From Larkinella terrae (GTDB taxonomy: Bacteria > Bacteroidota > Bacteroidia > Cytophagales > Spirosomataceae), in the NCBI RefSeq assembly GCF_009668025.1, contig NZ_WJXZ01000012.1, positions 1 to 64,000 of the forward strand: DNA of 64,000 nucleotides, read 5' to 3'. The position numbers were made by a program, and so were the translations under genes. Below, one piece after another: positions 10,855 to 23,175 of this stretch (within the stretch, counting starts at the first letter, position 1; every line of letters begins with the position of its first letter). Under the pieces are notes generated by a model, which worked only from the letters and a program-made list of their open reading frames with translations, was not told the origin of the DNA and searched no databases.

Positions 10855-12093
10855 TTATTTCTCCACGGATTTAATTGACGCTTTTGCCGGGCCAGATTTC
10901 AGCAACTGATCAAGATCGGCGTTGAATTCCTTCACAAATTCTTCGTAATACGCGCCGGTTGCCGGGCCGGTATAGCCGGTATGTATTTTGGAGACTTCGC
11001 CCTGGCGATTGATGTAGATGGTAGTCGGAAAGGAGAGCACTTCACTCAAAGCGGGCAAGGCGGCCGAGGCTAGTTTTTTATCGGCCAGTCCCGCAAACAG
11101 AATGTCATAGTCCACGCCAAAGCGGTTTTTCAGCGTTTGCAAACGGGTTTTGGCAAAAACCGGGTCGTCTTTGCGTTCAAAGGCAAGCCCGATAATTTCG
11201 ACGCCCCGCTGCCGATTGGCCTGATACCAGGGCGCCAGAAAGGCGGTTTCGTCAACGCAATTCGGGCACCAGCTGCCCAGAATGGTTACAATCACCACTT
11301 TACCCCTGTATTTTGGGTCTTTCAGTGAAACCGGTTTTCCGGTAAACGCATCCGGAAACGTAAAATCGAATGGAACGCCTTCTTTGATTTTTGTCAGTGT
11401 GTAGGCGTCTGGTAATGCCGCCTGGGCGTTGCGGGTTCCCTGCACCGGTTGTGCATTGCGGGCGTTGATCAATTCGGCGGTCAGCTCGTTGCCGTTCACC
11501 GTTCCCTTGATGAGCGAAGGGCTGGAACCGCTGAAAGCCGACAAGGCAAATTCGTTGCCCTGAACGGTCCCTTCGTAGTACCGAAAGTCGCCGGTTGTGG
11601 TCAGGAACGTACCCGTTACTTTATTGCCGATCTGCTCGAATACACCCACCGTTTTGTTGTCTTTTCCGATCGTAACGTCCCATTTCCCTTTCAGACTGAC
11701 GGCGGCCGCAGCGGGTTTTTCAACAAAACGATACCGCTTCCCGAATTCGGCCCGAAACGGAATACCTGGATCTACAACTTTGGTATTCAGACGCTTAAAG
11801 ACACCCGACAGGGTTTGGTTCGGCTCAATTCCAGCGGACAGCAGGGCATCGTAAATATCAACCGGAATAAAAAGGGAATCGCCTTTCTGGGTAACGCCTT
11901 TCAGCTCAAACCGCTCCGAACCGTTCAGCAGCCAGGCCGTCGGCCCTTTTAGTTCAAAGTTGAACGGTGCTTCCTGGCCATTGGCGACGGCAAACGTGCC
12001 CCGCCAGAAACCGTCTTTAGGCTTTGTTTGTGACTGGGCGCTGAAGCCCGCCAGCAGCAAACCGGTCAGGGTGAAAATGGCAATACGTTTCAT
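10855..12093 (-). CDS. Exported TlpA-like thioredoxin-fold protein
   Basis: 412-aa exported protein with a signal peptide ending FSAQSQ. Residues about 25-235 form a beta-rich region unlike thioredoxin, with two related-looking segments (FWRGTFAVANGQ and GKWDVTIGKDNK). Residues about 240-400 are a TlpA/ResA-type thioredoxin domain with the redox pair Cys276 and Cys279 in GSWCPNCVDE, followed by the usual FLAPWYQ helix. Such proteins reduce or rearrange disulfides in the periplasm and often serve cytochrome c or cell-envelope maturation. It begins 43 bases after the TauE/SafE gene on the same strand. Confidence 0.88.
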   Translation of the reverse strand: MKRIAIFTLTGLLLAGFSAQSQTKPKDGFWRGTFAVANGQEAPFNFELKGPTAWLLNGSERFELKGVTQKGDSLFIPVDIYDALLSAGIEPNQTLSGVFKRLNTKVVDPGIPFRAEFGKRYRFVEKPAAAAVSLKGKWDVTIGKDNKTVGVFEQIGNKVTGTFLTTTGDFRYYEGTVQGNEFALSAFSGSSPSLIKGTVNGNELTAELINARNAQPVQGTRNAQAALPDAYTLTKIKEGVPFDFTFPDAFTGKPVSLKDPKYRGKVVIVTILGSWCPNCVDETAFLAPWYQANRQRGVEIIGLAFERKDDPVFAKTRLQTLKNRFGVDYDILFAGLADKKLASAALPALSEVLSFPTTIYINRQGEVSKIHTGYTGPATGAYYEEFVKEFNADLDQLLKSGPAKASIKSVEK

Positions 12094-12136: not shown

Positions 12137-13018
12137 TTAGAACAAGCCCCAGATGTTGCGCAGGCTTAGTCCGATAATCACGAATCCGACGATAATCATC
12201 AGAACTTTCGGATTGATTTTTCCACAGACAAAAGCCGCGAACGGCGACGCCAGCACCCCGCCGAGCAGCAGGCCCGCCGTAACCGGCCAGTCGCCCGTTC
12301 CAATCATCAGGATGAAGGTTCCGGCTCCGGCGGCAGCGATAAAAAACTCCGCCAGATTCACCGAACCGATCGTATAGCGCGGATTGCGCCCCTGCCCGAT
12401 CAGCGAAGAGGTAACCACCGGGCCCCAGCCACCCCCGCCAACGGCGTCGATAAAACCGCCCAGCAACGCCAGCGGTCCGACGTAACGCGTTTTCTGTTTG
12501 GCTTTCTTTTTCATCAATGCTTTCCGGATGATGACTAATCCCATGAAAACCAGGTAGAACGAGATGTACGGTTTAATCGCGTTGCCGTCGAACGAACTCA
12601 GGATATAAGCGCCGATGATGGCCCCGGCAACGCCCGGAAGAACCAGTATTTTGAAGAGCTTTTTATTGACGTTCCCGAATTTCCAGTGCGATAAACCGGA
12701 CGCGCCCGTTGTAAAGACTTCCGCAATGTGCACGCTGGCACTGGCCGCAGCCGGACTCACGCCCATGCTCAGCAACAACGACGTGGAACTAATGCCGTAC
12801 GCCATTCCCAACGCGCCGTCGATGGTTTGGGCCAGAAAACCGGCCGCTACAAACAGCCAGAAAGTCGGTGTAAGTAGTTCATCGACAACCGGTTGCACGC
12901 GAATGTCGAGAAATTCCCAGGCGGCTGCGCCAATAAGCAGAACGAGCAGGGCAATGCCTAAAATCAAGAGCCGGGGATTGGCAAGCTGGGGCCGACTTTG
13001 GGTTTGAGTATCAATCAT
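12137..13018 (-). CDS. TauE/SafE family sulfite/organosulfonate-type exporter
   Basis: 293-aa inner-membrane protein with about eight hydrophobic segments. The family's repeated motif appears as AQTIDGALGMAYGISSTSLLLSMG in the first half (described here by its first residues at about 63) and as GGFIDAVGGGGWGPVVTS in the second half, both typical of TauE/SafE. Members export sulfite, sulfoacetate or other small anions. Its position just beyond the sulfatase operon and its terminator makes sulfur-anion export attractive, but the substrate is inference. A hairpin terminator at 13075-13096 separates it from the sulfatase operon, so it probably has its own promoter in the A/T-rich 13019-13070 region. 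Confidence 0.88.
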   Translation of the reverse strand: MIDTQTQSRPQLANPRLLILGIALLVLLIGAAAWEFLDIRVQPVVDELLTPTFWLFVAAGFLAQTIDGALGMAYGISSTSLLLSMGVSPAAASASVHIAEVFTTGASGLSHWKFGNVNKKLFKILVLPGVAGAIIGAYILSSFDGNAIKPYISFYLVFMGLVIIRKALMKKKAKQKTRYVGPLALLGGFIDAVGGGGWGPVVTSSLIGQGRNPRYTIGSVNLAEFFIAAAGAGTFILMIGTGDWPVTAGLLLGGVLASPFAAFVCGKINPKVLMIIVGFVIIGLSLRNIWGLF

Positions 13019-13219: not shown

Positions 13220-14281
13220 TTATTGATTTCTGACACACCGAAAACCCAGGTTATCACTCCCGCTACTGACTTCGCCCTTGCCGCGACTCCCTGCTTTGTA
13301 CCGGATGCAATACTGGTCGCTGCACAGAAACGAACCGCCCCGCTGCACGTATTTCACCGCACCGGGTTCGTCCGGGTCGTAGCTGTCGGTCGGGCCTTTG
13401 GGGTTTTCTTTCGGGCTATTCCGGTAGTAATCAGGGCGATACAGATCCTGGCACCATTCCCAGACGTTGCCGTCCATGTCGTATAAACCGTACGGATTGG
13501 CGGGAAACGAGCGAACCGGCGCAATTCCCGCAAAACCGTCTTCCTTTGCGTTTTGGTTCGGGAAATTGCCCTGATAAATGTTGGCAATCCACTTGCCACC
13601 CGGTTTCAGTTCTTCACCCCAGTAGTATTTCCGGTTGCCTTTGCCGCCCTGCGCGGCAAATTCCCATTCGGCTTCGGTCGGCAGGCGTTTTCCGGCCCAC
13701 TTGGCATAGGCTGCGGCATCTTCATACGAGACGTGCACAACCGGCTCATTTTCATGCCCCTGAATGGTGCTTTGCGGACCCGCCGGGTGTTTCCAGCTCG
13801 CTCCGGCGACATACTGCCACCAGGCCAGCGGGTTTTCCAGTGAAATCTGCTGATTGGGGGGCGTAAAAACCGCCGAGCCCGGCACCAGTTTATCCGCCGG
13901 AACGCCCGGGTAATCTTTCGGATTCAAGGGCCGTTCGGCCACGGTTACATACTTGGTAGCTTCCACAAACCGGGCGAATTCGGCATTCGTCACCTCGTGT
14001 TTGTCCATCCAGAAACCGTCGACTTTGACGGTATGCAGCGGGCGGGAATCGGGAAATTCATCGGAACCCATCTGAAACGTACCGCCCGGAATCAACACCA
14101 TATCCTCCGTGCCGGTTTCACCCGAAGCCGTTACCAGTGCCGCCTGCCGGATAGCCCCCGAGCGCGACGGCATGCCTTTCGCGACGCAATGCGCCCCGCT
14201 ATCGGTTTCGGCGGTTTGCTCGCTGGTCGATTTCGTTTCGGAATTGCAGCTGATCGCCAAAAAGGTAATTACTACTACCAT
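13220..14281 (-). CDS. Exported formylglycine-generating enzyme (SUMF1/FGE family) lipoprotein
   Basis: 353-aa protein predicted to oxidise the active-site Cys of sulfatases to formylglycine using O2 and copper. The N terminus MVVVITFLAISCNS is a lipoprotein signal with a lipobox Cys. The FGE-sulfatase domain starts at MVLIPGGTFQMGSDEFPDSR and includes HEVTNAEFARFVEAT, RLPTEAEWEFAA and NVWEWCQDLY. Both catalytic cysteines of true FGE are present in RGGSFLCSDQYCIRYKAG (Cys320, Cys325), which separates it from EgtB/PvdO relatives. The frame stays open upstream to 14392, but that stretch reads through a dispersed palindrome and the sulfatase 3' end, so the start is set at 14281. It is the last gene of the operon, after two sulfatases. 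Confidence 0.88.
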   Translation of the reverse strand: MVVVITFLAISCNSETKSTSEQTAETDSGAHCVAKGMPSRSGAIRQAALVTASGETGTEDMVLIPGGTFQMGSDEFPDSRPLHTVKVDGFWMDKHEVTNAEFARFVEATKYVTVAERPLNPKDYPGVPADKLVPGSAVFTPPNQQISLENPLAWWQYVAGASWKHPAGPQSTIQGHENEPVVHVSYEDAAAYAKWAGKRLPTEAEWEFAAQGGKGNRKYYWGEELKPGGKWIANIYQGNFPNQNAKEDGFAGIAPVRSFPANPYGLYDMDGNVWEWCQDLYRPDYYRNSPKENPKGPTDSYDPDEPGAVKYVQRGGSFLCSDQYCIRYKAGSRGKGEVSSGSDNLGFRCVRNQ

Positions 14282-14286
14282 CAATT

Positions 14287-14350
14287 GCCCCCAACCCCCT
14301 AAAGGAGACTTTTTACGACTCAGTAAAGTCCCCTTTAGGGGGTTGGGGGC
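14287..14350. repeat. Dispersed palindrome, family A copy (GGTTGGGGGC variant)
   Basis: Inverted arms GCCCCCAACCCCCTAAAGGA... and ...CCCTTTAGGGGGTTGGGGGC fill the gap between the FGE gene start and the end of the upstream sulfatase, ending 8 bases before the sulfatase stop. The same arm appears at the left edge of the window. Confidence 0.8.
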
Positions 14351-14357
14351 GAACCAC

Positions 14358-15920
14358 TTACTGCCCGCTTTCCACAATTTTGAGTGCTTCATCGTCCTTG
14401 TACTTCCGAATTTGGTCTTTGAGTTTCGTTTTCAGATCGGCGGTCACCGCTTCATATCCTTTAACGCCGTAAATGTTGTGAAGTTCCTGCGGATCTTTTT
14501 TCAGATCATACAGCTCCCAAAAATCTTTTGGACCATAAAACCGCACTAGTTTATATTGACCACCGCGCAATCCGAAGTGCGGATAAACGTGGTGCGGCAC
14601 CGGATATTCGTAATAATGATAATACGCTTCCTGGCGCCAGGGCACTTTTTTACCCGTCAGCAGCGGCAGAAACGATTCGCCCTGAATGTCTTTCGGAATG
14701 GCGGTCCCGGTCAGGTTCAGCAAAGTCGGCGCCCAGTCGATATTGGAAATCAGCTCATTAATCTGCGTTCCCGGTTTAATTACACCCGGATACCGAATCA
14801 CAAACGGCGTTTTCAGCGATTGTTCGTAAATAAACCGCTTATCAAACCAGCCGTGTTCGCCCAGATAAAAACCCTGATCGGACGCATAAACGACCACCGT
14901 ATTTTTCGCCAGACCGGATTTATCCAGGTAATTAAGCAGTTCGCCAATGTTGCGGTCCAGCGCGTTCGCCGTGGCTAAATAGTCCTTTAAATACCGCTGG
15001 TATTTCCACTCGACCAGCGCTTTACCCGTCAGCTTTTTCTCATCAAATTCCTTGCTGATTTTGTTCTCGTAATACTCATAAAACACTTTTTTCTCTTCGG
15101 GCGAAAAGCGTTTATAAACCGCATTTTTGACGTAATCGGCGTGTACTTTCAAATCCTCTTTCAGGCGCATCGTTTTATCGATGGTCATGTCCTGATCTTT
15201 GGCGGCTTCCCGACCTTCGTAGTTGTCGTAAAATGTTGCAGGGAGCGGAAAATTCACCTTGTCGTACGCGCCCAGATCGCGCAAATCGGGTAGCCATTCG
15301 CGGTGCGTGGCTTTGTGGCCCACCACCATAAAGAACGGTTTTGACTTGTCCCGCTGATTGAGCCAATCCAGCGAAAGTTTCGTAATCACGTTGGACACAT
15401 AACCTGGATACCGAACCGTATCGCGTTTGGAATTGATAAAATCCGGACTGTAATAATGCCCTTGACCCGGCAAGACGTTCAGGTAATCAAAGCCGTTCGG
15501 CAGCGTACCGAGGTGCATTTTACCAACCCAGGCGGTTTGGTAACCATTCTTTTTCAATTCTTCCGGGAAAACCGACTGATTGACGGCAAACTTGCCCTCG
15601 TTGGCTTTGTAACCGTTCAGGTGGCTGAATTTACCGGTCAGCAAAGTCGCCCGGCTGGGTCCGCAAATCGAATTGGTGACGACGTTGTTGTGCAGAATGG
15701 CTCCCTCCCGCGCAATCCGGTCGATGTTCGGCGTTTTGGTCAGCTTGCTGCCGTACGCGCTGATGGCCTGATAAGCGTGGTCGTCGGAGAAAATAAAGAT
15801 AATGTTGGGCCGGTTGGCCTGCTGAACTTCGGTTTCTTTCGGAGCATAACCCGGAACGACAATCAAAGCTGCCAGGGCCGAGAAGAGGCCTAATATGCAA
15901 ATTCCAAGGCGTATATTCAT
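14358..15920 (-). CDS. Type I sulfatase (exported)
   Basis: 520-aa alkaline-phosphatase-fold sulfatase that should hydrolyse sulfate esters on an imported or extracellular glycan. A signal peptide or anchor covers about 1-25. The metal-binding start is PNIIFIFSDDHAYQAISAYG. The formylglycine site is Cys86 in NSICGPSRATLLTGK, matching C-x-P-S-R, so it needs FGE, which is encoded next in the operon. Further metal and active-site blocks are GKMHLG and YASDQGFYLGEHGWFDKR. A C-terminal subdomain ends with the usual ELYDLKKDPQELHNIY motif. Length is normal. The exact substrate class (heparinoid, GlcNAc-6S, or other) cannot be fixed by eye. Confidence 0.92.
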   Translation of the reverse strand: MNIRLGICILGLFSALAALIVVPGYAPKETEVQQANRPNIIFIFSDDHAYQAISAYGSKLTKTPNIDRIAREGAILHNNVVTNSICGPSRATLLTGKFSHLNGYKANEGKFAVNQSVFPEELKKNGYQTAWVGKMHLGTLPNGFDYLNVLPGQGHYYSPDFINSKRDTVRYPGYVSNVITKLSLDWLNQRDKSKPFFMVVGHKATHREWLPDLRDLGAYDKVNFPLPATFYDNYEGREAAKDQDMTIDKTMRLKEDLKVHADYVKNAVYKRFSPEEKKVFYEYYENKISKEFDEKKLTGKALVEWKYQRYLKDYLATANALDRNIGELLNYLDKSGLAKNTVVVYASDQGFYLGEHGWFDKRFIYEQSLKTPFVIRYPGVIKPGTQINELISNIDWAPTLLNLTGTAIPKDIQGESFLPLLTGKKVPWRQEAYYHYYEYPVPHHVYPHFGLRGGQYKLVRFYGPKDFWELYDLKKDPQELHNIYGVKGYEAVTADLKTKLKDQIRKYKDDEALKIVESGQ

Positions 15921-16066: not shown

Positions 16067-17614
16067 TTATTGCAATGCTTCGTCCGGCCAGGCTACCGGT
16101 TTACCGGTTTTTTTGAACGTCGGCATCTGCGCATTCCAGACCTTCAATTGCTTAGTAAGCAGCGAAGCTAGCTGTTTTACTTTGTCCGGCTGCTCAGGAG
16201 CCCGGTTTTTTTGTTCGCCAATATCATCCTTCAGGTTGTAAAGTTCCAGTTCCGAAGTTCGGTGATCGTAGATGAGTTTCCAGTCGCCCTGCCGGATGGC
16301 GCTCGCCCAGTGCAGCCGCGGCCCTTCGGCCGCAATCCAGCGATTCGGGTGGTGCCAGACGAGCGTTCGCGCGTTGTCGGTCAAGCCCGGATTTTTCAGC
16401 AGCGGTACGAACGATTTTCCGTCGATGGTCTGAACGGTAGACGTTTTTTTTACCCCGGCCAGCTCCAGAATGGTTGGAAAAAAGTCTTCCACAATCAGGT
16501 ATTGATCCGTCACTCCGCCCGGTGTGACCACGCCCGGCCAGCGCACCAGCATTGGCTCCCGAATGCCACCCTCGTAGACCGAACCTTTGCCCGCCCGCAG
16601 CGGCAGGTTGTGCGTGTGTTCGGGACCACCCCGCTGCGGTTTGGTGCTCAGCCCGCCGTTGTCCGACATAAAAATGACCACGGTATTGTTCGCGATCTGG
16701 CGGTCGTCCAGGTAGTTGAGCAGATCGCCCAGGCTTTTGTCCATGCCTTCCACGAGCGACGCGTATTTTGCTTCGATGCTGTCCAGACCGGCTTTCAGGT
16801 ATTTATCCAAAAACCGCTTGTCGGCCATAATCGGCGTGTGGACGGCGTAGTGACCGAAATACAAAAAGAACGGCTGCTTTTTCTGAACCGGCACGTCCAG
16901 CGCTTTGATGGCTTCCAGCGTCAGGGCTTCGCTCAGAAAAACGTCCTTGCCATGGTAGGCTTCCAGCCCCGGAACCGCATTGCGACCCGGTTTGCCGTTC
17001 GTTGGATGGTCGTAATTTTCGGTGCCCAGATAGCTGCCCGGATGCCCGATTTCATTGCCCGCGATATTCACCCGAAAACCCAGATTTTTGGGGTCCGAGC
17101 CCGGAGTTCCCGCCGAACCGAAATGCGCTTTCCCGGTATGAATCGTGTAATAACCGCTCTGGCTCAGCAGCGTCGGCAGGGGCGTTGCGTGAAACGTGTG
17201 CTCGATTCCCGCGACCGGACTCAGGCCGTTGATGTTCCAGTCCACGGAGTTCATCGTGGTGTCCGCAAAATCCGTGTTTTTATTCTTGTTCGGTGAAGTC
17301 CAGTGCGTAATCCGGCTGTGGGCGGCATTCACTCCGCTCAGCAAGCTCGTGCGGGTGGGCGTACAAACCGGCATCGCGTAGGCATTCGTAAATTTCAGCC
17401 CTTCCTTCGCCAGGCGTTCCATGTTGGGCGTCCGATACCGCCGGTTCAGGTCCGTCACCTGTTTCCAGAACGGCACCGACGTATCCTGCCAGCCCATGTC
17501 GTCCACCAGAAACACCACGATGTTCGGCGGGGCCGGTTTTTGGGCAACCGAACTACTGATTGCAGCCCATAGAAAGCCCATCAGCATCTGGATTCTCAAA
17601 GAAAACTTGTACAT
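16067..17614 (-). CDS. Type I sulfatase, arylsulfatase A-like (exported)
   Basis: 515-aa second sulfatase of the operon. From the chosen ATG the signal peptide reads MYKFSLRIQMLMGFLWAAIS...VAQ; an ATG at 17641 adds nine residues and is less typical. The core begins PNIVVFLVDDMGWQDTSVPF. The formylglycine site is Cys84 in MPVCTPTRTSLLSG (C-x-P-T-R). Other active-site blocks are HTGKAHFG, FGHYAVHTPI and FMSDNGGLS. The C terminus has the ELYNLKDDIGEQKN block. It differs clearly from the neighbouring sulfatase, so the two should remove sulfates at different positions. It probably also needs the FGE at 13220-14281. The upstream gap to SusD holds a tandem array. Confidence 0.92.
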   Translation of the reverse strand: MYKFSLRIQMLMGFLWAAISSSVAQKPAPPNIVVFLVDDMGWQDTSVPFWKQVTDLNRRYRTPNMERLAKEGLKFTNAYAMPVCTPTRTSLLSGVNAAHSRITHWTSPNKNKNTDFADTTMNSVDWNINGLSPVAGIEHTFHATPLPTLLSQSGYYTIHTGKAHFGSAGTPGSDPKNLGFRVNIAGNEIGHPGSYLGTENYDHPTNGKPGRNAVPGLEAYHGKDVFLSEALTLEAIKALDVPVQKKQPFFLYFGHYAVHTPIMADKRFLDKYLKAGLDSIEAKYASLVEGMDKSLGDLLNYLDDRQIANNTVVIFMSDNGGLSTKPQRGGPEHTHNLPLRAGKGSVYEGGIREPMLVRWPGVVTPGGVTDQYLIVEDFFPTILELAGVKKTSTVQTIDGKSFVPLLKNPGLTDNARTLVWHHPNRWIAAEGPRLHWASAIRQGDWKLIYDHRTSELELYNLKDDIGEQKNRAPEQPDKVKQLASLLTKQLKVWNAQMPTFKKTGKPVAWPDEALQ

Positions 17615-17679
17615 ACTCTGATAGAATTTATACCACCACATAGAATTTTACAACCACCTTTTACAGCCCGTCCGCCAGG

Positions 17680-18050: not shown

Positions 18051-19472
18051 TTATTTATACCCGTCGTTCTGCTTCAGACTCGGATTGCGGTCGATTTCGC
18101 TTTGCGGCAACGGAAACAATACCTGGTAATCAAAAGCAACTTTGCCCCGCGCTTTGGCATATTCGATGAATTTGCCGTGCCGGATCAGGTCCTGCCGACG
18201 AAGTTCTTCCGAGAAAAATTCCCAGCCGCGTTCTTTCAGCAAGTGCGCCCGCAAGGCATCTTTGGATGCAAAATCGCCGGTTTTCAAAGCCGTCACGCCC
18301 GCCCGCGACCGCACCTGATTGATCAGGTCGATAGCTTCCTGCGTCGGGCCGTTCAGTTCGTTCAACGCTTCGGCGCGGGTCAGCAGGATGTCCGCGTAGC
18401 GATACACCGGAAAATCGTTGCCCATTACCTCGCCGGTCGCGCTCAGATCTTCTTTGAACTTGAAACTCCGCACATCGTCGGTGCCGAGCTTGATGATTTT
18501 CCCGTTGATATCCTCGTATTCCGTGATGATGGCCTGCCGCCGTTGATCCGCCGGATCGAAGGTATTATAAAAACCGGACAAGGTTTTCAACTGCGTGGCA
18601 TAATTGGTTTTCGGAGCGGTTTTGAATTTGTAATTCGGGGGAGCTGCGTGGGGCAGGTAGTTGTCGCCCAGACCGGGTTGAGCTAGGCTCGGCCGGATGT
18701 AAATGAACTCGGTATTTTTCTCGTTGGCAATGTCGAACAAATCGGTCCGGTTGGCTCCGCTGAACAGTTTATATACCCCCAGATCGACCACTTTCTGGGC
18801 GGTTTCGGCAGTTTCCTTCCATTTTTTATTGTTCAGGTAAAACCGGGTCAGCAACGATAAGGCGGCACCCTTGGTTGCCCGGCCGTATTGGGTGGCAACC
18901 GTCGGCAGGACGTCGGCCACGGCTTTGAATTCCGTTTCCACGAAGGCAATAAATTCTTCCCTTGTTGGGCGGCTGGGCCGGTCGTCGCTGCTGGTGGTGC
19001 TGCTCGTAATCAGCGGAACCGGGCCGAAAAGGTCGTACAAGGTCTGGTAGGCGCTGGCCCGCAAAAACCGGGCTTCGGCCAGAATTTGGGCCTTCCGGGT
19101 TTCGTTCATTGAAATGGCTGGCGTCTGATCCAGAATCAGATTCGTCCGGTAGATTGTCCGGTAATGCGTGGTCCAGGCGGTTTCGAAAAACTCGTGCGAC
19201 GCGTTCCAGGTAAAGTCTTCCAGCGGCTGGGCCAGGCTTCGCAAACCGCCTTCCCGGTCGATCAGCAGATCGGTATTGACCTCGGCCATCAACAGGTAAT
19301 TCCGAAAACCCCGGCGTTGTTCCACCGAATAGGCCGAATTGAGCAAACCTTCGGCGTCGTCGGCTTTCTGGAAAAAATTGTTAGGCCCGAAAGCGGAATA
19401 CACTTCTTCTTCGAGCGGATTGGCGCAGCCCGTCAATAGGCCAATGATTGCTAAATAGAATATCTTTTTCAT
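18051..19472 (-). CDS. SusD/RagB family glycan-binding lipoprotein
   Basis: 473-aa surface lipoprotein that caps the SusC transporter and binds the glycan. The lipobox is in GLLTGCANPLEEEVY, where Cys16 becomes the lipidated N terminus after cleavage. The SusD-like N-terminal domain has QRRGFRNYLLMAEVNTDLL and the helical TPR-type part ILAEARFLRASAYQTLYDLFG, a strong SusD marker. The C-terminal RagB/SusD domain has PVYRYADILLTRAEALNELNG and LLKERGWEFFSEELRRQDLIRHG as family blocks. Length is slightly below the usual 500-550. It follows SusC by about 140 bases that hold a dispersed palindrome. Together with two sulfatases it points to a sulfated glycan as ligand. Confidence 0.94.
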   Translation of the reverse strand: MKKIFYLAIIGLLTGCANPLEEEVYSAFGPNNFFQKADDAEGLLNSAYSVEQRRGFRNYLLMAEVNTDLLIDREGGLRSLAQPLEDFTWNASHEFFETAWTTHYRTIYRTNLILDQTPAISMNETRKAQILAEARFLRASAYQTLYDLFGPVPLITSSTTSSDDRPSRPTREEFIAFVETEFKAVADVLPTVATQYGRATKGAALSLLTRFYLNNKKWKETAETAQKVVDLGVYKLFSGANRTDLFDIANEKNTEFIYIRPSLAQPGLGDNYLPHAAPPNYKFKTAPKTNYATQLKTLSGFYNTFDPADQRRQAIITEYEDINGKIIKLGTDDVRSFKFKEDLSATGEVMGNDFPVYRYADILLTRAEALNELNGPTQEAIDLINQVRSRAGVTALKTGDFASKDALRAHLLKERGWEFFSEELRRQDLIRHGKFIEYAKARGKVAFDYQVLFPLPQSEIDRNPSLKQNDGYK

Positions 19473-19613: not shown

Positions 19614-22600
19614 TTAAAAAGTCAGATTTAGTCCCACCGTATACGTCCGCGTCAGCGGGTACGCGTTGTAATCCGCCCGAACGTTGGACGTGCCAAACGC
19701 GCTCACTTCGGGATCAGAACCGGTGTAGTTCGTGATCGTAAACAGGTTCTGGCCGGTAACGTACACCTGGGCACTACGGATAAACTTCAGCTTTTCCAGC
19801 GGCACGTTATACGCTAACTGAATGTTTTTCAGTCGGATAAACGAGGCATCTTCGACGGCCCGGCTGTTGATGTTGGTCGCGTAGGCCACTTTGGGGGCAA
19901 TTCCGGAGGAGTTGGCGTTGGTCGGATTCGTGGGCGTCCAGCGGTCGGTGTACGACTCCGCCAGACGGTTGCGCCGGAACGAAATCGGATTTTCGGATTC
20001 CGTGCGGTTCAGGTTGAAAACGCTGCTGCCCTGCACACCCTGCAAAAAGAACGAAAGCGTCAGCGGACCATAGGCAAAGTCGTTGTTGATCCCGAACGTA
20101 TAATTCGGGAACGGCGAACCCAGAATGGTGCGGTCGGCGGTTGTGATCTGGCCGTCGCCGTTGACGTCGCGGTAACGGTATTCGCCGGGGTTCGCCAGCG
20201 GCTGCGGAGACGATTTGATGTTGTCGCCCAGTTGATACACGCCGTCGATCACATACCCGAAAAACGAGTTCAGCGGTTGGCCTTTCTGAATGATGCTGAA
20301 GTCCTTCGAAAAACCGGCTTCGCCCTGCAAAATGTACGGCAGCCCAGCCAGATCGGTCACTTCGTTGCGAATCAGCGAGAAATTGACCGACGACCGCCAG
20401 GTCAACGGTTTCTGAATGTTGACGGTATTCAGCGTAATTTCCAGCCCCTGATTTTTCATGCCGCCTACGTTTTTAAAGGTTGTCGAAAAACCGGAAGTGC
20501 GCGGAATCGGAAGCTGGAGCAATAAATCCTGGGTATTTTTGTGAAAATAGTCGATCGAGCCGGTCAGGCGGTTTCCGAATAAACCAAAATCCAGTCCTAG
20601 ATCCAGTTGCGCGGTGGTTTCCCACTTCAGATCGGGGTTCGGCAACTGCGTGGTCGACACACCGACGTACGAAACGCCGTCGAAAATGGCATTCCCCTGC
20701 GGCCCCAGCAACACCAGCGATTTGTAACTTCCGATGTCCTGATTCCCGGTCAAACCGTAGCTGCCACGCAGTTTCAGGTCCGACAAAACCGCCACACTTT
20801 TCAGGAAATTTTCTTCCTTAACCCGCCAGCCAAGCGCGACCGAGGGGAAAAAGCCAAACTTGTTGTTCTGCCCAAACCGCGACGAACCGTCGGCCCGGAA
20901 CGAAGCCGTCAGCAAATATTTATCGAGCAGGTTGTAATTGACCCGGCCCAGATACGATTGCAACTGGTTCTGGTTGCGGCCCGAACCCACATCGAAGGTC
21001 GAGCGGGCACCAGCCGCTAAATTATTGACGGACAAGGCATCCGACGAGAAATTCTGCGAACCCGCGCCCACGTAGTCGTTCTGAAACTCCTGATAGGTAT
21101 AACCGCCGAGTACTTCCAGTTTATGGTTTTCGTTGAAGGTTTTGCTGTAACGCGCCGTCAGTTCGACCAGGTAGTTGCTGGCGTTGCTCACCTGGACGTC
21201 GGCAATTCCGTTCGTGGCCTGTCCGCGCCGGGTCTGGCGCGAAATGTAACTGTCGCGACGTGCGCTCTGACGGTCGGTTCCGGCGTTGATTTTCACCGAT
21301 AATTCCGGCAAAATGAAGTATTCGGCGAAGAGGTTGCCGAACGTGCGGTTGGTCTGGGCCACATCGGTTACTTCGTTGGCCAGCGCCACCGGATTTTCGA
21401 GGTTCACGATGAGCGTCTGGGCGTAATTGCCGTTAGCGTCCCGAATGGGCAGCGTCGGGTCCTGAAAAATGGCGGTATTGACCACCCCGGCGCTTTCGTT
21501 GATGCTGACGCCGTTCGGCACAAAATCGTCTTTTACCAGACTGGTATTCAGGTTCAGGCCAAATTTGAATTTGTCGTCGTTGTAGATCAGGTTCGCCCGA
21601 CCGATGTATTTTTTGATGCCGGAACTGATAATGACGCCTTTCTGGTCGTAAAAATTCACCGACGCGTAGTAGTTGAACTTGTCCTGCCCGCCCGAAAATG
21701 CCAGTTGGTGGTTGCGGGTATAACCGGATCGGTAAATTTCCTTCTGCCAGTTGGTTCCGTCACCAATGGCGGCAATTTGCTCCGAGGTAAACTCCGGTGC
21801 CAGCCCCTGGTCTTTTTTCAGATCGTTCAGCAAACCGATGTACTGCTGGGCGTTCAGCATCGGGATGGTTTTGGTCACTTCCTGAAACGAGGTGCTGCCG
21901 TTGTAGTTGACTTTCAGTTTCCCTTTCGAGCCTTTTTTCGTGGTCACCAGAATGACGCCGTTGGCCCCGCGTGACCCGTAAATCGCTGTCGCTGAGGCAT
22001 CTTTCAGGATTTCGATGCTTTCAATATCTGCCGGATTTAGCGCGTTCAGCGGATTGCGAACGGCGCCGTCGGTAATGACCGGCGAGTTGGGCACCACCGG
22101 CGAATTGTCGATCGGCAAACCGTCGATCACGTACAGCGGTTCGTTGTTGGCGTTGATGGAGTTAGCACCCCGAATGCGGATCGTGACGCCCCCGCCCGGT
22201 TCGGCGCTGGCCTGCGTGACCTGAACCCCGGCTGCCCGGCCCGCAATCAACTGATCGACCGAGGTTTGCACGCCTTTGTTGAACTCCTTCGCATCGAGCG
22301 AGCTGACGGCACCGGTCAGGTCACTTTTTTTCTGGGTTCCGTAACCGACCACCACGACCTCGTTCAACTGCCGCGTGTCCACCAGTAACTTAATATTGAG
22401 CTGGGTTTTGCTGTTCACCGGTACTTCTTGACGCAGGAATCCGACTCCTGAAAACACCAGAACGGCCTCGCTCCCGGCCTGAAGCTGGTAATTTCCGTCG
22501 CTGTCGGTCACGGTTCCCTGCGTGGTATTTTTAATGAGGACATTGATGCCCGGTATGCCGGAACGCTCGTCTTCCGAAGTCACTTTCCCCCGGATCGTTT

Positions 22601-22697
22601 GCTGGGCATGCGTTCCTAAACTGGTTAGAAGCAGAAAAACCGGCAACAGAAACTTAAGCGTAATCCGCTCGTAGTCAATTTGGTATAAAATTTTCAT
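19614..22697 (-). CDS. SusC/RagA family TonB-dependent glycan transporter
   Basis: 1027-aa outer-membrane transporter. The signal peptide ends GTHAQ. Then come the carboxypeptidase-regulatory-like domain (IRGKVTSEDERSGIPGINVLI), the SusC-specific box LNEVVVVGYGTQKKSDLTGAVSS, the plug domain (VTIRIRGANSINANNEPLYVIDGLPID, about residues 172-200) and a 22-strand barrel ending GLNLTF with the expected C-terminal aromatic. Length is typical. It is the first long gene of the sulfated-glycan operon and is preceded at about 140 bases by a short Cys-rich open frame. No ECF sigma/anti-sigma pair is adjacent, so regulation may be by the leader or by a distant regulator. Confidence 0.95.
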   Translation of the reverse strand: MKILYQIDYERITLKFLLPVFLLLTSLGTHAQQTIRGKVTSEDERSGIPGINVLIKNTTQGTVTDSDGNYQLQAGSEAVLVFSGVGFLRQEVPVNSKTQLNIKLLVDTRQLNEVVVVGYGTQKKSDLTGAVSSLDAKEFNKGVQTSVDQLIAGRAAGVQVTQASAEPGGGVTIRIRGANSINANNEPLYVIDGLPIDNSPVVPNSPVITDGAVRNPLNALNPADIESIEILKDASATAIYGSRGANGVILVTTKKGSKGKLKVNYNGSTSFQEVTKTIPMLNAQQYIGLLNDLKKDQGLAPEFTSEQIAAIGDGTNWQKEIYRSGYTRNHQLAFSGGQDKFNYYASVNFYDQKGVIISSGIKKYIGRANLIYNDDKFKFGLNLNTSLVKDDFVPNGVSINESAGVVNTAIFQDPTLPIRDANGNYAQTLIVNLENPVALANEVTDVAQTNRTFGNLFAEYFILPELSVKINAGTDRQSARRDSYISRQTRRGQATNGIADVQVSNASNYLVELTARYSKTFNENHKLEVLGGYTYQEFQNDYVGAGSQNFSSDALSVNNLAAGARSTFDVGSGRNQNQLQSYLGRVNYNLLDKYLLTASFRADGSSRFGQNNKFGFFPSVALGWRVKEENFLKSVAVLSDLKLRGSYGLTGNQDIGSYKSLVLLGPQGNAIFDGVSYVGVSTTQLPNPDLKWETTAQLDLGLDFGLFGNRLTGSIDYFHKNTQDLLLQLPIPRTSGFSTTFKNVGGMKNQGLEITLNTVNIQKPLTWRSSVNFSLIRNEVTDLAGLPYILQGEAGFSKDFSIIQKGQPLNSFFGYVIDGVYQLGDNIKSSPQPLANPGEYRYRDVNGDGQITTADRTILGSPFPNYTFGINNDFAYGPLTLSFFLQGVQGSSVFNLNRTESENPISFRRNRLAESYTDRWTPTNPTNANSSGIAPKVAYATNINSRAVEDASFIRLKNIQLAYNVPLEKLKFIRSAQVYVTGQNLFTITNYTGSDPEVSAFGTSNVRADYNAYPLTRTYTVGLNLTF

Positions 22698-22756
22698 AGC
22701 AGAAAATAAGTTAGTTTTGATTTAAACTCATATTTAATCCACAGATTAACAAGATT

Positions 22757-22800
22757 AGTAAACACAATAGAGGTTTACTCTCCGGTCCAGGGGAAGAGAG
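22757..22800 (-). promoter_or_regulatory. Possible overlapping attenuator hairpins between leader peptide and susC
   Basis: On the minus strand, after the Cys-rich leader, CTCTC pairs with GAGAG (22796-22800 with 22778-22782) and, further on, AGTAAAC pairs with GTTTACT (22773-22779 with 22757-22763). The two stems share bases 22778-22779, so they exclude each other, which would suit a switch. Stems are short (5 and 7 bp) and no strong U-tract follows, so support is weak. Confidence 0.3.
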
Positions 22801-22836
22801 ACGGCATTCTATAAAAAATGGAGCAAATGAGGTAGC

Positions 22837-22950
22837 TTACGAACCGCAACAACAGCAGGCAGAAGTTGCTGCTGGAAGAGACGGCAAATCAGGAATTACA
22901 GACCCAACGGCCCGTAGAGAAAGCATACGTAAGTAGGTAGAATTTTTCAT
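22837..22950 (-). CDS. Short Cys-rich leader peptide (37 aa) ahead of the SusCD/sulfatase operon
   Basis: The frame starting at ATG 22950 encodes MKNSTYLRMLSLRAVGSV and onwards, ending ATSACCCCGS before TAA: four consecutive Cys codons just before the stop. The frame is open further up to 23037, but the chosen ATG gives a compact basic-start peptide. It ends about 140 bases upstream of the SusC start on the same strand. Known parallel: in Actinobacteria, short upstream frames ending in clustered Cys codons attenuate sulfur genes in response to cysteine. By inference this peptide could couple charged tRNA-Cys supply to expression of a sulfate-releasing operon. It could also be a small secreted or modified peptide. 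No homology claim can be made here. Confidence 0.55.
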   Translation of the reverse strand: MKNSTYLRMLSLRAVGSVIPDLPSLPAATSACCCCGS

Positions 22951-23175
22951 GACATCCATTCCAGTAAAGAAACAGAATTTAAATCTTCTTATTCCAGCAA
23001 TTAAGTGGAGTAACAAAGGAATGGTTAATTTGGGCATAAATCAAAATAATAGTGACAAAGCATTAAAAAGTTAAACAGAAAGACAATAAAGTACAATGAA
23101 CTTAAAAAGTGCAGCCGAAGTAGCCAGAATAAAGTTATATCGCAGACAGGAACGTCCGCGAACTATTATTTTACC

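Follow-up and report, generated by a model that had tools for sequence, protein, structure and literature searches.

A short reading frame that closes on a run of cysteine codons, just ahead of a sulfur-scavenging operon in Larkinella terrae, is likely, as far as sequence comparison can tell, to function in cysteine-responsive attenuation. It lies within a 64,000-nucleotide stretch of DNA, here called the window. We hold it quite probable that this leader is a translated peptide by which the cell reads its cysteine supply, and that ribosome stalling on it induces expression of the operon. In plain terms, the tiny Cys-ended gene would probably be a cysteine gauge that turns on sulfur-scavenging genes when sulfur is short. 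Comparison between genomes establishes the frame, its terminal Cys run, their conservation, their recurrence before sulfur genes, and a covarying RNA.

An earlier note on this DNA had claimed a 37-codon frame ending ACCCCGS ahead of a sulfatase/SusCD operon, and the frame is indeed present on the minus strand (22950-22837). Its ATG occupies 22950-22948 and its stop TAA 22839-22837, and 139 nt separate the leader stop from the susC start (22697). Leader and operon comprise the following features.

22837..22950, minus strand: leader ORF of 37 codons, MKNSTYLRMLSLRAVGSVIPDLPSLPAATSACCCCGS; frame kept in 8/9 Larkinella genomes
22846..22857, minus strand: four Cys codons TGC TGT TGT TGC, then Gly, Ser and stop; 4-5 Cys in all 8 Larkinella leaders
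19614..22697, minus strand: susC, SusC/RagA family, by family-model match (TIGR04056)
18051..19472, minus strand: susD (PF07980, PF14322)
16067..17641, minus strand: sulfatase A (PF00884)
14358..15920, minus strand: sulfatase B (PF00884, PF16347)
13220..14392, minus strand: FGE-like sulfatase-modifying factor (PF03781)
12137..13018, minus strand: TauE/SafE-family membrane protein (PF01925)
10855..12093, minus strand: TlpA-like redoxin; homologues about 45 percent identical stand behind a motif and a SAM riboswitch in genus g52

The operon runs on the same strand as the leader in the order susC-susD-sulfatase-sulfatase-FGE-TauE-redoxin. Members of the FGE family oxidise a cysteine in sulfatases. 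Since no glycoside hydrolase was found among the operon genes searched, sulfur scavenging fits the operon better than polysaccharide use. At the leader, no Rfam family matches at gathering or any meaningful E-value, and the covariance model of the SAM riboswitch (RF00162) likewise has no match there (L063).

The Cys run alone is no evidence. In the organism's own genome, four TGY codons followed within 12 bases by TRR (the stops and TGG) match 73 times, compared with 61 for the reversed pattern, which is near background; the evidence is therefore conservation. Other Cys-run places in this genome were inspected (19 places and 14 regions) and none was convincing; MICCCCL before a LysR gene (L315), for example, seems by eye to run into the start of a divergent gene.

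A search with the window peptide alone against 59 genomes, its own included, returned weak matches; of the 32 given as loci, all but L007 were inspected. Two of these, L009 and L018 from two congeners, are real leaders with the layout of the window, while L012 and L021 have Cys-run ends but sit inside long ORFs; the remaining loci were dropped as chance. A sequence-only model built from the window leader and the two congeners (R1) finds strong matches in eight of the nine Larkinella genomes and none outside the genus, the best other E-value being 0.0016 (222 genomes). The same eight loci are given independently by a susC orthologue search, and the frame is found in all of them. The ninth genome, G007, has neither an R1 match nor a susC-orthologue locus.

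Over these eight leaders frame 0 is open for 36-38 codons, the stop falls in one alignment column (223-225; TAA in five, TGA in three), and gaps within the ORF are multiples of three. The peptides start with MK or ME, and after the closing four or five Cys come at most two further residues. M1 and four of the Cys are the sole invariant residues, and the middle drifts. Three Cys wobble positions are invariant as well (T, T, C). The other frames offer a caution: frame +1 shuts immediately in 7/8, a weak control because the TGA within ATGA alone brings this about, and frame +2 stays open for at least 38 codons in three leaders and for 3-19 codons in the other five, which makes open frames alone weak evidence. 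Downstream, susC-susD-sulfA-sulfB-FGE follows in 8/8 loci, and TauE plus redoxin were seen in three (window, G005, G001). In 15 other genomes (one of genus g5 and 14 of g52, with only about 220 nt upstream for L121) the susC orthologue has no such leader, so the leader is not essential to the operon. Some of these leaderless orthologues in g52 (L109-L113) have TAATCTATAAACTTGGTAGAATAA or a near form upstream, overlapping the likely -33 region.

The alignment of the eight loci also outlines a promoter region and a structured RNA, whose elements in the window are these.

23042..23045, minus strand: putative -33 box TTTG, about 20 nt before the -7 box; TTG invariant in 8/8
23014..23021, minus strand: putative -7 box TTCCTTTG; TTTG invariant in 8/8
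22993..23009, minus strand: inverted repeat TCCACTTAATTGCTGGA, operator-like, where transcription is predicted to start; its layout resembles the g52 motif
22850..22874, minus strand: hairpin within the leader ORF, CAGCAGC/GCTGTTG, across the first Cys codons; paired in 91 percent of cells, one-sided changes only
22778..22800, minus strand: first hairpin of the earlier note, CTCTC..GAGAG, in a terminator-like position; present in the window, poorly kept in this register
22757..22779, minus strand: second hairpin of the earlier note, AGTAAAC..GTTTACT; present in the window, not conserved

We name the two boxes after what we take to be the promoter consensus. They are conserved and lie about 64-95 nt ahead of the leader ATG, which speaks against a leaderless start, the transcription start being a predicted one. 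The operator-like repeat changes from TCCA/TGGA to TCTA/TAGA in two of the eight Larkinella loci. It precedes none of the 27 SAM riboswitches of the nine Larkinella genomes, the best site agreeing at 16/24 positions. Each of these genomes has three SAM riboswitches, and ahead of one of them lies CTATAAAAAATATAGATTTAGTTTGG or a close variant (L294, L296-L299, L302-L305), a block that is perhaps another form of sulfur operator.

Six helices can be drawn on the 8-sequence alignment, among them one at the predicted transcription start, one in the ORF and one at the terminator position. In them 86.8 percent of cells pair and the covariation score is 0.360, a value matched by 0/500 shuffles, compared with 0.09-0.18 for slid structures, and 14 pairs carry double changes, which 5/500 shuffles attain; the alignment used for scoring is also the one from which the structure was drawn, and these numbers favour it accordingly. 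The earlier note had described two hairpins that overlap by two bases and exclude each other. Both exist in the window, but as a mutually exclusive pair they are not conserved as drawn: in the other seven Larkinella species the first keeps 0-4 of its 6 pairs and the second 1-5 of 7. A hairpin two columns over (267-289) survives in part, with 73 percent of cells paired and compensatory changes. Intrinsic terminators follow 3/8 Larkinella leaders as against 11/160 shuffles. The Cys run pairs weakly with the 75 nt downstream of the stop, and a control region further down pairs more strongly, so that no antiterminator was found.

How far does this arrangement extend beyond the genus? A profile of the eight peptides has no strong match in the family outside Larkinella. 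One weak match in g52 (E 0.012; G125, L163) is a second poly-Cys leader behind TTACTTTG-TCTATCAAATTAGTAGGA, the only one kept of the 17 weaker profile loci inspected. The motif ACTTTGTCTATCAAATTAGTAGA, allowing up to three mismatches, is found in 60/222 family genomes, including 46/48 of g52, with one match of the reversed control in the genome rows; in the window's own genome it stays at background (11 vs 13), with matches mostly inside genes. We inspected 110 motif sites, 30 given as loci and 80 chosen among the matches listed. At 41 of them an ORF of 20-50 codons with CC among its last six residues is in place (shuffles 20/5500; reverse strand 1/110), and leaders with at least three Cys stand at 30 (shuffles 3/5500). 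By this test 69 sites are without such a leader; of the 41 class leaders, 11 show no more than two Cys among their final six codons. TGC and TGT are mixed in these g52 leaders, which have a common tail but mostly differing bodies and precede unrelated genes.

The same motif stands directly ahead of an RF00162 SAM riboswitch in 12/12 loci that were chosen for their riboswitch look. The genes behind these riboswitches are redoxins (PF08534, one tested), four of which are 44-46 percent identical to the window redoxin, and members of the class-V aminotransferase family (PF00266, one tested), presumably cysteine desulfurases. The check suggested in the earlier note, a search for similar leaders at other sulfur loci, does find them, and the promoter motif ahead of them stands before SAM riboswitches too.

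The class leaders of g52 have features of their own, in counts that are not independent events, many of the leaders being orthologous: [AG]CCACC is present in the 5' UTR of 40/41, CCACC forms the loop of a hairpin whose stem has four or more Watson-Crick pairs in 39/41 (shuffled flanks 2634/8200), and GGTGG lies inside 35/41 leader ORFs (codon shuffles 619/8200). RNAalifold on a MAFFT alignment of the class UTRs gave no pair, and pairing was then counted anchored on the loop. Among 29 distinct arm pairs, 80 percent of the positions next to the 7-nt loop pair, compared with 60 percent (maximum 69) when the arms were exchanged 2000 times. We infer that CCACC and GGUGG contact each other. The hairpin occurs at 0/19 riboswitch-type sites, a group set by sequence pattern (L182, a riboswitch by Rfam, fell in the other group), and at 17/50 other sites, some with Cys clusters slightly off the stop and others without a Cys leader.

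A second sequence-only model (R2), from promoter to start codon and built from 39 class leaders, matches 67/222 family genomes at E 0.01, 46/48 of g52 among them. Over 395 genomes of the taxonomic class it has no match, in a set with no known positive. For an out-of-sample test, 20 matches were chosen among the matches listed, none of them used in R2. CCACC is present in 20/20, a CC-tailed ORF in 16/20, at least three Cys in 10/20 and GGTGG in 15/20. The 16 CC-tailed ORFs span five genera; further genera among the out-of-sample matches are four, represented by G031 (three loci), G158, G177 and G013. The G177 locus has an FGE-like gene (PF03781) with 34 percent identity to the window FGE, and the G013 locus a sulfatase (PF00884).

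Behind 57 leaders the next gene, sorted by our own sequence motifs, is a binding protein in 29 cases, FA-hydroxylase-like in nine, SusC/TonB in seven, a sulfatase in six, an FGE in one, a sigma factor in one and unassigned in four. The tie between a Cys-codon leader and sulfur supply proposed at the outset thus finds backing in two sets: homologous leaders across the genus, and their analogues at sulfatase, SusC-like, FGE and other genes. The g52 binding protein, so named from its look, belongs to no Pfam or NCBIfam family and has only weak PDB matches; no homologue appears at 1e-20 in the nine Larkinella genomes, a set that held no positive control.

Several single loci in this group are worth recording. 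Between the leader stop and the binding-protein gene, 11 aligned loci (L181, L187, L190, L204 and similar) share the largely conserved block TGATTTTCACCCTGTTACATATCATT. In L198 (G124) the leader start continues in frame into the binding-protein gene without the Cys tail, which looks like an attenuator that was lost. At L186 (G111) the gene after the motif and leader encodes a sigma-70 family (ECF-like) factor; that leader has its CC close to the C-terminus. Fatty-acid-hydroxylase-like (FA-hydroxylase-like) genes follow poly-Cys leaders in g52 at L238, L246, L249, L232 and L268 (PF04116 at 1.2e-21 for L232, below the cut-off for L238); by such leaders a lipid-modifying enzyme would come to depend on cysteine supply.

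Both types meet within Larkinella. In G003 an R2 match lies divergent from the window-type leader, where a CCACC hairpin comes first and MKRISTSFSSSLPVTQVVVFSYPKWADSAPVRSSCCCCC-stop after it, the ORF also containing GGTGGTGG. G001 and G007 have R2 matches as well. This class leader ends SSCCCCC-stop, and the gene after it, cut by the locus end, opens like a SusC/TonB receptor (CarbopepD_reg_2). The window leader itself has no CCACC between promoter and ATG, and R2 does not match it. On our preferred reading the window leader probably belongs with the sulfur-scavenging set of the family, where a sulfur-type promoter is followed by a SAM riboswitch at some loci and by a poly-Cys leader at others.

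What might the leader do? We infer its translation, its stalling under cysteine shortage and the direction of its control, namely induction. With ample cysteinyl-tRNA, the ribosome would pass the terminal Cys codons and leave at the stop, and the operon would remain low. With scarce cysteinyl-tRNA it would stall at the Cys codons, and the stalled ribosome would permit transcription or translation into susC-susD-sulfatases-FGE, whose products would free and take up sulfate. The mutually exclusive hairpins of the earlier note's mechanism are not conserved, and intrinsic terminators are not enriched in the wider class (6/56 vs 83/1120 shuffles). Because of this lack of enrichment, Rho-dependent termination or translational coupling is favoured over a trp-type terminator. 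The contact between hairpin and ORF could serve as a timing device.

Other readings of the same data have to be weighed. Control by sulfur might need nothing but a transcription factor bound to the operator, with the leader a relic or an unrelated translational enhancer. Operator-like repeats indeed precede leaderless susC orthologues and also SAM riboswitches, but the Cys tail is kept while the rest of the same ORF drifts, and it recurs before several unrelated gene classes, which leaves this explanation improbable. The ORF could alternatively encode a small Cys-rich peptide with a function of its own in trans, whether as a modified peptide or by binding metal or thiols. It is short, Cys-rich and conserved in position, and the operon encodes an FGE-like protein from a family that oxidises sulfatase cysteine. 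We nevertheless regard such a peptide as very unlikely: M1 and four Cys are all that is invariant over eight sequences, the g52 leaders have their tail and mostly not their body in common before unrelated genes, and no peptide-modifying enzyme other than the FGE-like protein was found among the operon genes searched.

Least probable to us is that a TGY-rich RNA or DNA motif, such as a protein or RNA binding site, is conserved and the frame incidental. The exchange of TAA and TGA at one column, ORF gaps in multiples of three and a frame open from ATG to stop in 8/8 are hard to reconcile with it, as is the mixture of TGC and TGT in g52; in its favour are the invariant wobble positions of three Cys codons in Larkinella, the hairpin spanning the first Cys codons and a frame +2 that is likewise open in 3/8. 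We therefore retain cysteine-responsive attenuation as the preferred reading.

Comparable devices have been described elsewhere. The mycobacterial polycysteine attenuators share with the window a poly-Cys short ORF upstream of sulfur genes; those short ORFs, in work by Canestrari from 2020 that PMC13236596 cites, reportedly have a leaderless start. The trp/his-type attenuator similarly has a run of regulatory codons near the end of a short ORF before amino-acid-linked genes, whereas its conserved alternative antiterminator was not found at the window type. In g52 the SAM riboswitch RF00162 stands where a poly-Cys leader otherwise follows the promoter motif; the window leader has no Rfam match.

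That Cys-clustered leaders stand ahead of actinobacterial sulfur genes, as the earlier note stated, is borne out by the available part of PMC1262725, where Cys-run leader peptides precede cys operons of Mycobacterium and P. acnes and cbs of B. longum. As far as that text goes, they are alike in the short ORF, the Cys codons at the stop, the sulfur genes downstream and the want of a conserved intrinsic terminator. They differ in phylum and in preceding genes that make cysteine, whereas the window-type genes scavenge sulfate esters; the window type, unlike them, has a predicted 5' UTR of about 55-60 nt with covarying hairpins, and in g52 the leader promoter motif also serves SAM riboswitches. 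The uORFC-8-2 motif before cysS, in the accessible portion of PMC8632094, is likewise a uORF with tandem Cys codons in a structured RNA; its Cys codons usually occupy positions 14-15 and it has an intrinsic terminator, while those of the window leader end a 37-codon ORF before another gene with no terminator enriched. Within Bacteroidota, leader-peptide attenuators are described for amino acid biosynthesis operons of Flavobacterium psychrophilum (PMC9723704), an account whose available part mentions no Cys leader or sulfatase locus, and the accessible text of a premature-terminator survey (PMC2965389) names none in this phylum. Our literature search, which covered few subscription papers, brought up no paper on Bacteroidota in which a Cys leader belongs to a sulfatase or SusC locus. 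A Bacteroidota sulfur-scavenging regulon built on Cys-run leaders is thus absent from the literature searched, while Cys-run leaders as such are already known from Actinobacteria.

A more tentative picture, which we put at somewhat less than an even chance, is that of a sulfur-starvation regulon in the Spirosomataceae. One operator would be joined interchangeably to a SAM riboswitch or a poly-Cys leader, the kissing contact between the CCACC loop and GGUGG would be broken by the translating ribosome, and terminator-free coupling of ribosome and polymerase would tune sulfatases, SusCD, binding protein and lipid-modifying enzyme to cysteinyl-tRNA, with the window leader as a variant. If the leader reads cysteine, it links cellular cysteine directly to the scavenging of sulfate esters via SusCD systems. 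With many natural replicates, a covarying hairpin and the swap with SAM riboswitches, the working of a terminator-less Cys leader becomes testable. All this suggests that Cys-codon attenuators may be a regulon-wide device outside Actinobacteria.
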